From a virus, in the IMG/VR virus record IMGVR_UViG_3300046733_001521, positions 1-31,045 of that record: a stretch of 31,045 bases of DNA; one strand, given 5' to 3'. Each line of letters begins with the position of its first letter. Position 1 is the first letter of the stretch. The position numbers and the translations under genes were made by a program. Of the stretch, positions 278 through 4,698 are shown in pieces. Below the pieces are notes generated by a model. The model was not told the DNA's origin. It saw nothing but the letters and a program-made list of their open reading frames with translations, and searched no databases.

Positions 278-2051
278 AGTGTGAATACGCTGGAATGCCT
301 GTTTCATCAATCATATTACCTTGATGAAATGTTGTTGCACTCGCTGTCTGCGAATTGTCGACTTGATAATTATTAATTGTTGTACCACCTGCTGCAGCAT
401 TAACTGCCATAGCTTTTAGATCAGCATTCTGTTTTTCACGGGCTGCCATTTCAGCACCATTTTGTGCAAGCTGCTTTTCTAATTCTGCGATTTTCTTTTG
501 AGACTTAGCTATACCCTTTGATTCTCTACCAAGATATTCGTCCTCTCCTGATTGAGAGCGATTAATTCGGGCCCGTTCTTTTTCGATTTCAGCCTGAATC
601 TCTTCATTGCTTTTGCTAAATGGATTTAACTTACTAATAGTATTTTTTACAGCATTTAAAGATGCCTTAAGAGAATTCGACAAGTCTTCCATTATTGATT
701 TAAACAAATTTATTGGAGACATTAAAATGCCTTTAATACCATCCCAAATTTTACCAAGAGACTCTCCAATCTTTTCTTTATCAAATGTAAATATACCAAC
801 TACTAAATCTATTAGCCCAAGGAATACATTTTTAAATCCTTCGATGATTGAAGCAAATGAACTTTTAATTTGTTCACCCGCCTTTTCAAATCCAAGGACT
901 TTAAGGATATTTCCTAGTAAACCAGAGACGAGGCCACCAATTTTATTAAGTGCGCCGAATGATATGTTGACTAAAAACTTGAGTAATTTTCCAGCTAATT
1001 CTACTACACTACCAACAAGAGTATCGTAGAGTGCAAAAAGACCTTGTTTAATTCCTTCAACAATTCCACCTTCTTTCTTTCCTTTCATAAATCCTTTTAC
1101 GAAAGAAAATACACCAAGGATTATTTTTAAAGGAAGAAATATTTTTCCAAATATGTTACCTAAAGCCTTTGCCTTTGAGGCAAACTTTAAAAATCTTGCA
1201 AATCCTTTGCTACCTGCAATTTTACTTTGAATAACTTGAAAAAACCCACTAACTCGTGTTGCAATATTTTTAATAAATTCTATTCCTTTTGCTACGGCTT
1301 TATTTTTTGTAACCTTTGAAAGCAATACAGAAATTCTAGCGCCAATGCTTGTAAACGCACCTTTAATTGCCGTGCCTAATTTAGTGAAAAAGCCAGAAAA
1401 GACTTTATTGTCAATCCATTTACTTACATTGGCAAATCCTTTTAATACCTTACCTAGTTGTTGAAAATACCCCTGAAAGAATCCAATTAAAAAGAAAGGA
1501 ACTCCGAGCAATATCTTACCAAGTGTTTTTAAGAACCCTTGATACTTCTTCCCCTTAAAGTCTTTTCCGCGGGCTACTTTGGTATCCTTTAAAGCTGCAA
1601 GCATTTCTCTACGGTTTTCTTCTTCTGCAAGCTTATTGCCCATCATAAAGTCTGATAGGCGTGCAATATCACGTTGCATAAACTCGGTAAGAGTTGTAAG
1701 CATGTTCGTATTTTTTGCAACAGCTATTCCAGTATCTACCTGGGCTTCTTGTTCGATCAAATCTCGATTTGCCTGGTTTTCAGCAGCGATTGCTGCCTTT
1801 TTAGCGGATATTCTCTGAAATTGCGCTACAACTTGATTAAATATAAAATCACGTCTACGATAGAATTTTTCGCGCTTAATTTGTCTTTCTTCAATATCAC
1901 CAGCTTGCGCCTGCGCTGCGGCAAGCTCAAGAATAACTGCTCCAAGTGCTTCATTTTGAGCATTGATTTTGCCAAATTGTGCTTGTGAAACACCCAACTG
2001 TTCTTGCGATAAGTCAGCTATTCTTTTTTGATCTTGATTTTCGTCAGCCAT
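276..2051 (-). CDS. Tail tape-measure protein candidate (gp29-like), 591 aa
   Basis: This is probably the tail-length ruler that fills the tail tube. Residues 1-160 are hydrophilic and helical (Gln/Ala/Glu-rich, likely coiled coil). Residues about 170-455 alternate amphipathic and hydrophobic Phe/Gly/Lys-rich helices, for example GVPFFLIGFFQGYF near 183-196 and VFLGLIDLVVGIF near 409-421. The C-terminus (about 475-591) is again polar. This Phe/Gly-rich hydrophobic pattern is typical of tape measures. The length is almost the same as T4 gp29 (590 aa), so a T4-like tail length is expected. The position supports the call: it lies directly downstream of a tube-fold gene and a frameshifting chaperone-like gene, whose -1-frame stop overlaps this ATG by 8 nt. 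No Shine-Dalgarno precedes the ATG, so translation is probably coupled. I see no sequence identity to T4 gp29 itself. Confidence 0.7.
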   Translation of the reverse strand: MADENQDQKRIADLSQEQLGVSQAQFGKINAQNEALGAVILELAAAQAQAGDIEERQIKREKFYRRRDFIFNQVVAQFQRISAKKAAIAAENQANRDLIEQEAQVDTGIAVAKNTNMLTTLTEFMQRDIARLSDFMMGNKLAEEENRREMLAALKDTKVARGKDFKGKKYQGFLKTLGKILLGVPFFLIGFFQGYFQQLGKVLKGFANVSKWIDNKVFSGFFTKLGTAIKGAFTSIGARISVLLSKVTKNKAVAKGIEFIKNIATRVSGFFQVIQSKIAGSKGFARFLKFASKAKALGNIFGKIFLPLKIILGVFSFVKGFMKGKKEGGIVEGIKQGLFALYDTLVGSVVELAGKLLKFLVNISFGALNKIGGLVSGLLGNILKVLGFEKAGEQIKSSFASIIEGFKNVFLGLIDLVVGIFTFDKEKIGESLGKIWDGIKGILMSPINLFKSIMEDLSNSLKASLNAVKNTISKLNPFSKSNEEIQAEIEKERARINRSQSGEDEYLGRESKGIAKSQKKIAELEKQLAQNGAEMAAREKQNADLKAMAVNAAAGGTTINNYQVDNSQTASATTFHQGNMIDETGIPAYSH

Positions 2052-2229
2052 TTTGTTTTCTTATTCTTTCGTTTTCTTCTTTTATATATTGATCTAAGAG
2101 TGAAACATAGATTTGCCTTTCCCAAGGAAGCATGTTATCAAGCTCCGATAAACTATATTTATGGTGTTGGACCATAGAAAAGTTGGTTTGATAGTGATTT
2201 TGTAAAGAATCATGGGAAAGGCCTAGATA
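2044..2229 (-). CDS. -1-frame extension of the gp26-type gene (61 aa), made by frameshifting or mis-split by an indel
   Basis: In the -1 frame, translation continues from TAT at 2229 to TGA at 2044-2046 and adds 61 residues. Recognisable stretches are LGLSHDSLQNHYQTNFS, HHKYSLSELDNMLPWERQI and YIKEENERIRKQNG. The part before the only internal ATG (2175) already looks coding, and no Shine-Dalgarno precedes that ATG. A fusion with the upstream gene is therefore the best reading and would give a protein of about 295 aa. Segments of the form HHKYSL-MLPWER-EEN occur, as I recall, in small proteins next to, or at the end of, gp26-type proteins of T4-like phages. The frame ends 5 nt inside the tape-measure coding start (ATGGCTGA overlap). 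This matches the G/GT chaperone layout of siphophages such as lambda: short form, frameshifted long form, then tape measure. Confidence 0.75.
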   Translation of the reverse strand, partial: YLGLSHDSLQNHYQTNFSMVQHHKYSLSELDNMLPWERQIYVSLLDQYIKEENERIRKQNG

Positions 2230-2930
2230 AAAAAACTCTGTAGTCCAACCAACTCTACTTCATTTTTATGACCACACTTAGAGCATTTAAATTCAACAGT
2301 ATGCTTAAGCATTGGTTGGTTTTCAATAAACTCTTGAATTTTTTCAAGATGAGTATGACTTAGGTTATCAATAAACTCAGCAACTTCTTTAGGATTTGTT
2401 TCACTTACTTTATAAACGTTATCCTCATCGTATATTACATCAATAACAGCAGCAATTGCTTTAGTAAAACTATTTGGATCATTGACTTCAGTAAGAGTTT
2501 CAACTTCATCAACTAAAACTTCCTTTAACTGTATTCCAACGCTATCTGTAAGCTTTATGTCTGTTTCGGGTTTATTTTCAGGATATGCGATTTCAATATC
2601 ATTAAGATTTACTTCAACAGTGTTATATTCACCACACTCTTCGCATTTAAATTGAAGCTCTGCTGTTTCTCCTACACTGGCTGCTCTTAGTTTTAAGAAC
2701 ATATATTCGATATCATAAGTAGTACATTTACTCGGATTTAGTTTGTTGAACGTACATGCCTTAATAATGTTTTTCAGTGCCTTTAACGTTGCAGCATTAT
2801 CATTTGATTCTTGCGCAATCATGAGTATCTTTTCTTCTTTTACAAGAAAAGGACGATATTCAACCTTTTCTCCAGTAGAAGGTACTACTGTACTATAGGT
2901 TGGTGTTTCTAGTTTTGGTAACGTATTCAT
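2223..2930 (-). CDS. 26: gp26-type baseplate-hub/tail assembly protein, 235 aa, with two CxxC pairs
   Basis: This resembles the T4 gp26 family (baseplate hub assembly; Pfam T4_baseplate as I recall). It begins with a short beta segment, YRPFLVKEEKILM (25-37). A helical region containing FLKLRAASVGE (78-88) leads into the first cysteine pair, FKCEECGEYN. The second pair, FKCSKCGHKN, lies near the C-terminus. Cys96/Cys99 and Cys216/Cys219 are in matching strand contexts, so the two halves may form one four-cysteine zinc site. T4 gp26 is 208 aa. The gene lies between a tail-tube-fold gene and the tape-measure candidate, the position of tail-assembly chaperones in other tailed phages. The zero-frame product ends in QSFFI immediately after a slippery T run; a -1 shift would replace the final Ile with a 61-residue extension. 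The start is ATG at 2930, 20 bases after the upstream stop. Confidence 0.75.
   Translation of the reverse strand: MNTLPKLETPTYSTVVPSTGEKVEYRPFLVKEEKILMIAQESNDNAATLKALKNIIKACTFNKLNPSKCTTYDIEYMFLKLRAASVGETAELQFKCEECGEYNTVEVNLNDIEIAYPENKPETDIKLTDSVGIQLKEVLVDEVETLTEVNDPNSFTKAIAAVIDVIYDEDNVYKVSETNPKEVAEFIDNLSHTHLEKIQEFIENQPMLKHTVEFKCSKCGHKNEVELVGLQSFFI
2229..2235 (-). promoter_or_regulatory. Slippery heptamer T TTT TTT for -1 frameshifting
   Basis: On the minus strand the gp26-type gene ends CAG AGT TTT TTT ATC TAG. The run T-TTT-TTT fits the X-XXY-YYZ slippery rule, and a -1 slip places the ribosome on TAT CTA GGC, which stays open for 61 codons. The zero-frame stop comes one codon after the slip site, as in many programmed sites. 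I did not identify a convincing downstream pseudoknot. The alternative is a homopolymer length error in the assembly. Confidence 0.65.
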
Positions 2931-2949: not shown

Positions 2950-3633
2950 TTAGTTAAATAATCCTCCAATCGCGTTTTTAATACCACCAAGAGTTGAGGA
3001 TATGCCTCCTGCGGGTTTAAAGTCATCATAAGTAAAAGTAATTGATAAACGCTGTGTTGTATCGCTACTTTCGTTATTTAGTTCAACACCATTCATAGTA
3101 ATAGGATAGGCGTTTTGTAAGGTGATTCCATAAACTGGAACATTGTTTTCGTTTAGTTGCTGAATGGTAACATCTGTCTTATAAACACTATCATAGTTTT
3201 TAAGATATGTTTCTTGATTGATAGGCAATCCCATCCACTTATCAAACATCTTTCTCATGTAATAATCATTTGTTAGGTGGAATTCAAACTCAACATCTTC
3301 ATTAAAGTAACCAGTAGGATGCTTAATTGCTTGAGCAAATCCATTCAAAGGATTATCAAGTGTTTGTATTTGTCTTCCAGGTAAAGAGCAACGATTACAC
3401 AATAGTGCTATATCTCGTGGATCATTTACTAAAGAAGATGCTTTAAAGTCTCCACTCAAGGCAGTAATCGCAATATTTTCAAGATCAATATTAAGCAACG
3501 ATTGTTGAGGAGGCCTCATATAGATTAAGAATCTATTTGTCTTAGCAAGTCCACCATGCTTACCAATGGTGGATTTAAAATCATCAATCGTTGTAGGATT
3601 AATAGTTTCGTTTATTTTGTTTAAAAAGCTCAT
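2950..3633 (-). CDS. Tail-tube-fold structural protein (gp19 family; possibly gp54-like tube initiator), 227 aa
   Basis: The protein has the marks of the T4 gp19 tail-tube family: an N-terminal NRFLIYM strand, LCNRCSLPGRQIQT (about 78-91), the central EFEFHLTNDYYMRKMFDKW, and a C-terminal ITLQNAYPITMNGVEL followed by SITFTYDDF. T4 gp19 and the tube initiator gp54 share this fold. The major tube gene of T4-like phages usually sits beside the sheath gene gp18, which is not here. A copy next to the tape measure is therefore more likely a tube-baseplate adaptor such as gp54; this is inference. Its ATG overlaps the stop of the upstream 195-aa gene by 4 nt (ATGA), indicating translational coupling, and no Shine-Dalgarno is visible. 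Confidence 0.65.
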   Translation of the reverse strand: MSFLNKINETINPTTIDDFKSTIGKHGGLAKTNRFLIYMRPPQQSLLNIDLENIAITALSGDFKASSLVNDPRDIALLCNRCSLPGRQIQTLDNPLNGFAQAIKHPTGYFNEDVEFEFHLTNDYYMRKMFDKWMGLPINQETYLKNYDSVYKTDVTIQQLNENNVPVYGITLQNAYPITMNGVELNNESSDTTQRLSITFTYDDFKPAGGISSTLGGIKNAIGGLFN

Positions 3634-4235: not shown

Positions 4236-4679
4236 CTATGTGAGTAGCTTTATGCCTAAACCTTTTAGTGTCTTTTCTGTCCAAACTTCAAACTTCATAC
4301 CATTTCTATTTGCATACGCTGTAGCTGCTTCCCACTTTGATATGTTCTTAGCGTATGTCATAACTTCATTTAAATACTTCTTTGTTTTTCGACTACCTTT
4401 CTTAGGTGGCACCGTCTGACTTTCTGGTTTAATTTCTATTAGAAAGCACTTGCCATCTTTCATTCGAATAAACAAATCAGTAAAGTATCTATGCATCTTA
4501 CCGTCCGTCTTACAGCGATAACGTACAACGATCTCTTCTGAATTCCAACCAACCACGGCTGGATTATCATCTAAATAGCGGAACGTTTGCCTCTCCCAAA
4601 GAGATCGATACTTAATTGTTGAAGGATTGCCCTCGTACTTTTTTATATTTTTTGGTTTATATCGTCCTGAATATGCCAT
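4236..4679 (-). CDS. 4: Head completion protein gp4, 147 aa, with nuclease-like D...ExK core
   Basis: In T4, gp4 (also called gp50) is needed to finish the DNA-filled head so that it can join a tail. The sequence opens MAYSGRYKPKNIKKYEGNP, continues with IKYRSLWERQTFRYLD, and has HRYFTDLFI followed by FLIEIKPE, the usual gp4 pattern. Length is close to T4 gp4 (150 aa). Asp68, Glu82 and Lys84 match a PD-(D/E)XK-type nuclease core, with Glu29 as a possible extra ligand. I chose ATG at 4679 because GGAG (4689-4686) sits 6 nt upstream. A longer reading from GTG at 4691 would use that Shine-Dalgarno as codons and add only four residues. It is the first gene of the leftward operon and is expressed from the late promoter at 4717-4724. 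Confidence 0.8.
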   Translation of the reverse strand: MAYSGRYKPKNIKKYEGNPSTIKYRSLWERQTFRYLDDNPAVVGWNSEEIVVRYRCKTDGKMHRYFTDLFIRMKDGKCFLIEIKPESQTVPPKKGSRKTKKYLNEVMTYAKNISKWEAATAYANRNGMKFEVWTEKTLKGLGIKLLT

Positions 4680-4685
4680 GATTAA

Positions 4686-4689
4686 CTCC
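4686..4689 (-). promoter_or_regulatory. Shine-Dalgarno GGAG that sets the gp4 start
   Basis: The minus strand reads GTGGAGTTAATCATG. GGAG lies 6 nt before the ATG at 4679. Clear Shine-Dalgarno sites are rare in this window, so this one decides the start against the upstream in-frame GTG. Confidence 0.7.
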
Positions 4690-4698
4690 ACGTTTTAT

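Follow-up and report, generated by a model that had tools for sequence, protein, structure and literature searches.

The window, the whole 31,045-nucleotide stretch of viral DNA analyzed here (IMG/VR record IMGVR_UViG_3300046733_001521), carries a run of tail genes on its minus strand. Among these, an open reading frame (2223–2930) encodes a 235-aa gp26 (PF12322, E 6e-60; phrog_150 positions 4–232), the putative short, G-like form of a tail assembly chaperone (TAC-N). The gene sits between a tail-tube fold protein of the T4 gp19 family upstream (2950–3633; phrog_45, E 1e-33; PF06841, E 4.5e-7) and a 591-aa tape-measure protein downstream (276–2051; phrog_1272, E 4e-7). Elsewhere on the same strand, a gp4-like head closure protein (4236–4691) matches a TnsA-like endonuclease N-terminal family (PF08722, E 3e-20).

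The gp26 frame ends AGT TTT TTT ATC TAG. Its seven Ts (2229–2235) form the heptamer T_TTT_TTT in the canonical X_XXY_YYZ phase, 3 nt before the TAG stop of the short form (2223–2225), and the −1 frame stays open from that run for 61 codons (2047–2229; translation YLGLSHDSLQNHYQTNFSMVQHHKYSLSELDNMLPWERQIYVSLLDQYIKEENERIRKQNG) to a TGA (2044–2046) that overlaps the tape-measure ATG (2051) by 8 nt. An earlier sequence-only reading had described this arrangement exactly, together with the lack of a Shine–Dalgarno sequence at the extension's only ATG, which is codon 19. The extension, a T-like domain, is hit by phrog_634 (E 2e-27), a family labeled "baseplate hub assembly catalyst," and falls on positions 236–281 of phrog_150; by these matches it is not an unknown domain, the same piece being annotated elsewhere as gp51. 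The anatomy given in that reading was nevertheless too narrow, since a downstream RNA stem (2213–2222 with 2115–2124) also belongs to the locus.

Conservation of the slippery site and reading frame

Relatives were gathered from viral contigs in three scans. The frame test used 243 loci (viral contigs, the window, and four isolates), of which 239 have an intact downstream region and the remaining four are contig ends; a few contigs were counted twice via different scans, and the dereplicated set comprises 132 genes. A homologous extension lies in the −1 frame in 239/239 intact loci. Each of them also keeps an in-phase T_TTT_TTN heptamer 0–9 nt before the stop: 181 read TTTTTTC, 56 read TTTTTTT, and one each ends in G and in A. 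T_TTT_TTC is still present in the four contig-end loci.

Codon choice at the site is equally constrained. The codon before the Phe-Phe pair ends in T in 132/132 genes, against ~80 (~61%) expected from their own codon use (log10P −29, ignoring shared ancestry), and the first Phe is TTT in all 132, against a background of 72% (log10P −19, again with shared ancestry ignored). Comparison of gp26 homologs with the downstream frame, proposed as a check in the sequence-only reading, finds both heptamer and frame offset conserved throughout, and at the sequence level the −1 frameshift site is conserved far above chance. Isolates with the same arrangement include S-PM2, P-SSM2, HTVC008M, Rhizobium phages, and three further phages that retain it within the Straboviridae as well (phiAS5, EniLVp02, and KVP40-like V09). 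HTVC008M (L261, 3397–3729) and Rhizobium phages (L086, 4363–4782) carry an extra small ORF of ~110–140 codons between the extension and the tape measure. The viral-contig search found no relatives of the Vibrio 1.244.A protein.

T7 runs are generally error-prone, and a homopolymer sequencing or assembly error that splits one ORF had been named as the main alternative. We regard its chance as negligible and exclude it because the same T7 recurs in independent metagenomes (L003–L011, relatives at 73–88% identity) and many versions read TTTTTTC; most loci carry that variant rather than a longer homopolymer, and the frame offset is identical in all 239, drawn from many metagenomes and from isolates. 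Transcriptional rather than ribosomal slippage would also yield a long form, and polymerase realignment is conceivable on a 7-T run. We hold this to be exceedingly unlikely: 181/239 loci have only six Ts and then a C, the heptamer is kept in the ribosomal X_XXY_YYZ phase, and candidate ribosomal stimulators are conserved both upstream and downstream.

Alternatively, the downstream frame could be a small gene in its own right (gp51) that has an independent start or is reached by reinitiation at the gp26 stop. Many cyanophage records annotate it in this way; it is a separate CDS in the records of S-PM2, P-SSM2, HTVC008M, V09, and N34, and a TAATG or TGATG overlap makes reinitiation possible in a few lineages (V09, N34, EniLVp02, and P10VF). 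Yet 58/132 dereplicated genes have no ATG, GTG, or TTG within the first 12 extension codons, and a Shine–Dalgarno-like stretch precedes an early start in just 5/132. The annotated gp51 start varies between records, the heptamer is retained in every case, the TAATG/TGATG lineages included, and the domain is fused in T4-group phages. An independent start for the downstream frame, which the earlier reading had suggested looking for in related phages, is accordingly rejected on the start-codon and Shine–Dalgarno counts, and we judge the separate-gene explanation as a whole to be very unlikely.

Two further groups show related configurations. Ackermannviridae (L087, L088, L265, and L266) have a −1 extension after gp26 with a PWH or PWQ motif and without a clean heptamer, and some of their gp26 3′ ends show TAATG overlaps. 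In Salmonella jumbo phage SE_PL (L089, 3818–4869), T_TTT_TTC occurs in frame in a gp26 relative, with an open −1 frame of ~70 codons, although the 0 frame itself goes on for ~12 more codons. By sequence, frameshifting in jumbo phages is possible.

RNA elements flanking the heptamer

In a dnaX-like three-part signal, an internal Shine–Dalgarno-like element lies ~10 nt upstream of the heptamer. Across the family studied here, anti-Shine–Dalgarno pairing peaks 9–10 nt before the heptamer, with a family mean of −6.4 kcal/mol against a gene background of +0.1, and the Glu codon at the element is GAG in 66/92 cases, against 26% background. A Shine–Dalgarno-like element ~9 nt upstream is, on this sequence evidence, family-wide. 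It is weak in the window (GGTTGGA, 2244–2250, minus strand; dG about −3.4), where relatives have GGAGGG.

Downstream, the canonical −1 frameshift signal has a structure about 5–9 nt after the heptamer. Folding of the window gives a stem between GCCTTTCCCA (5′ arm, 2213–2222) and TGGGAAAGGC (3′ arm, 2115–2124, within the PWERQ codons), 10 bp with a 6-nt spacer from the heptamer and an 88-nt loop; the whole-region fold reaches a z of only −1.9. The stem came from the fold of the window alone, so that it is partly chosen from the data; counts of paired cells and permutations over 56 sequences served to test it. In these 56 sequences, 88.6% of the cells of the stem are paired, against 30–58% when it is slid. 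Double-changed cells number 26, against 10.6 in shuffles (0/500), which account for shared ancestry only in part, and they are confined to 3 of the 10 stem pairs. They are mainly GC to CG at 13–120 and UA to CG at 17–116 (counted from the heptamer), the latter joining two synonymous third positions (CTT-GAA with CTC-GAG); Gly/Gln versus Ala/Glu exchanges also track the pairing. When codons were permuted among sequences with the same residue, the observed pairing was never reached (0/2000). RNAalifold predicted no pairs on the same 56-sequence alignment.

Synonymous change between the window and L003 is 2% in the extension, against 28% in gp26 and 40% at the tape-measure start. Against L003–L011, the invariant stretch of the extension (2047–2229, minus strand) exceeds the stem, which accounts for part of the missing synonymous change.

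The long-range stem is without support in two cyanophage groups, MAHE-type and LFH-type, and in the mixed remainder of the sequences (swap tests 17/200, 86/200, and 45/200). In its place, the cyanophage groups show a local hairpin that keeps this spacing, with a z of about −4 against protein-preserving recoding; its covariation is weaker (5/500 and 23/500). The window's clade combines an in-phase X_XXY_YYZ heptamer near the stop with a 10-bp stem at 6 nt that covaries and closes an 88-nt loop. This stem is unusually long-ranged, seems undescribed, and, by these sequence comparisons, is the probable stimulator of slipping in the clade. We consider it likely that the stimulator architecture changed between related lineages, with cyanophages using a local hairpin and the window's clade a long-range stem whose far arm is ~90 nt downstream. 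On that reading the far arm would lie in the most conserved protein motif, with RNA pairing and protein sequence selected together.

The pairing might have another origin, either because the stem serves another purpose, such as tape-measure translation or mRNA stability, or because it is a by-product of protein conservation; the 3′ arm does fall in the strongly conserved PWER codons. We find this doubtful, given that the 6-nt spacer suits a frameshift stimulator, covariation occurs at synonymous positions, the pairing exceeds both the protein-preserving recoding and the permutation nulls, and a stem of another kind occurs with this spacing in other clades. This alternative touches the stimulator part only and leaves the frameshift itself aside.

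Protein family and proposed mechanism

The structure model of the window's gp26, built from a 52-sequence alignment, has a pLDDT of 94.6. Among solved structures, 3FGX (Z 7.7) and 2OB9, the HK97 tail assembly chaperone (Z 7.0), come nearest; these matches span 85 residues, and the one ranked third drops to Z 4.6. Both leading values are below 8, and a Z of ~7 lies below the level that shows relatedness alone. Foldseek gives 2OB9 a probability of 0.51 and 3FGX 0.35, the highest among the matches listed and with no significant E-value. The modeled fold supports, and does not prove, membership of gp26 in the tail assembly chaperone family. A model of T4-group gp51 gave no useful fold match.

In T4-group phages, the short form (gp26) and a fused long form (gp51) are encoded as separate genes. 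In the T4 relative RB14 the two genes are divergently placed; its gp26 covers phrog_150 positions 14–235 and its gp51 positions 13–280 of 282. The window's extension aligns with the T4-group gp51 C terminus (hhalign, E 1e-6), and the window follows the same family pattern, the short form being the PF12322 domain and the long form adding the phrog_634 C terminus. In a midpoint-rooted tree with long branches, the gp26 and gp51 proteins of the T4 group cluster together (support 94/87) and separately from the frameshift phages, as would be expected if the T4-group lineage had undergone duplication and fusion; with such branches and rooting, the tree gives no more than a hint of this origin. In Citrobacter phage Moon (L083, 4708–6346), the label "tape measure chaperone, GT-like fusion" is given to gp27 and to a gp27/gp28 join; this annotation is probably wrong because the family evidence points to gp26/gp51.

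Gene order, isoform structure, and the nearest fold, that of HK97, support the earlier proposal that a frameshifted gp26 between a tube-fold gene and a tape measure forms a chaperone cassette. The accompanying suggestion that gp26 be recast as a chaperone is not new, T4 gp26 and gp51 being already listed as hub assembly chaperones (PMC3004832).

We are highly confident that the locus encodes a two-length tail assembly chaperone via a −1 frameshift, probably stimulated by the stem; in this marine T4-type phage, as read from its sequence, a −1 slip on seven Ts probably gives rise to two lengths of one tail-building helper protein. What the sequences themselves show is the heptamer, the frame, the homology, the order of the genes, and the covariation of the stem; for the slipping and its rate, the effect of the stem, and the chaperone action, we infer the following course. 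Most ribosomes would stop at 2223 and release the 235-aa short form, and a fraction would slip −1 on T_TTT_TTT to give a 295-aa long form, composed of the short form's first 234 residues and the 61-aa T-like domain homologous to the T4 gp51 C terminus. The stem of 10 bp and 88-nt loop, which begins 6 nt past the heptamer and has its 3′ arm in the PWERQ codons, would stimulate the slip; most relatives would additionally use the Shine–Dalgarno-like element ~9 nt upstream. If the lambda gpG/gpGT model carries over, the tape measure would be held by numerous copies of the short form, which would coat it, together with a few of the long form, whose extension would bring in the tube protein.

Relation to known systems

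For T4-like phages, tail assembly chaperones have reportedly been identified before by Vladimirov, Gautam, and Davidson (Virology, 2022), and the genes meant would, judging from the sequences, be gp26 and gp51. As credited to that work by later papers, some T4-like phages carry a short gene and a fused long gene (PMC10885494), and T-rich (poly-T) frameshift signals occur in the TAC-N genes of T4-like phages (PMC12846349). The kind of system is therefore already known. The frameshift itself is widespread and already known for the gp26 family. For the recoding signal, with its upstream element and two stem architectures, no description was found in the literature searched, where Vladimirov et al. 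2022 is represented by citing papers.

A 2016 review names T4 as the exception to G–T frameshifting among long-tailed phages (PMC5009743). The present comparison suggests that conserved frameshifting keeps the short/long chaperone split across T4-type phages, with the two-gene T4 group as the exception. It would also explain cyanophage "gp51" ORFs as the C-terminal piece of a fusion, and the two stem architectures provide a natural series in which the influence of downstream RNA structure on the frameshift rate could be tested.

The window shares short and long forms with the T4-like gp26/gp51 chaperones, as far as the findings of Vladimirov et al. are relayed; the T4 group has a separate short gene and a fused long gene, whereas the window has one gene with a frameshift. 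In Vandenendeviridae and Andersonviridae, the TAC gene uses a −1 frameshift at a T-rich motif near the TAC-N end (PMC12846349). Their extension reaches the tape measure, as in the window, but the motif is GTTTTT and they are other phage families. The parts of the E. coli dnaX −1 signal (described in PMC5600365), a Shine–Dalgarno-like element upstream, the heptamer, and a stem downstream, are all three found in the gp26 family; unlike dnaX, the heptamer is of T rather than A, the stem closes an 88-nt loop in the window's clade, and the window's own upstream element is weak.

In lambda, the tape measure is a binding partner of both gpG and gpGT, and binding of the tube protein is a property of the T part (PMC5009743). 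Lambda gpG/gpGT and HK97 have the same order of tube, chaperone, and tape measure as the window, with a short and a −1 frameshifted long form, and the HK97 chaperone 2OB9 resembles the modeled gp26 N-terminal fold. Compared with the lambda and HK97 chaperones, gp26 is larger and carries cysteine-pair (CxxC) zinc-ribbon-like motifs, and its slippery site, T_TTT_TTY, is unlike that of lambda.
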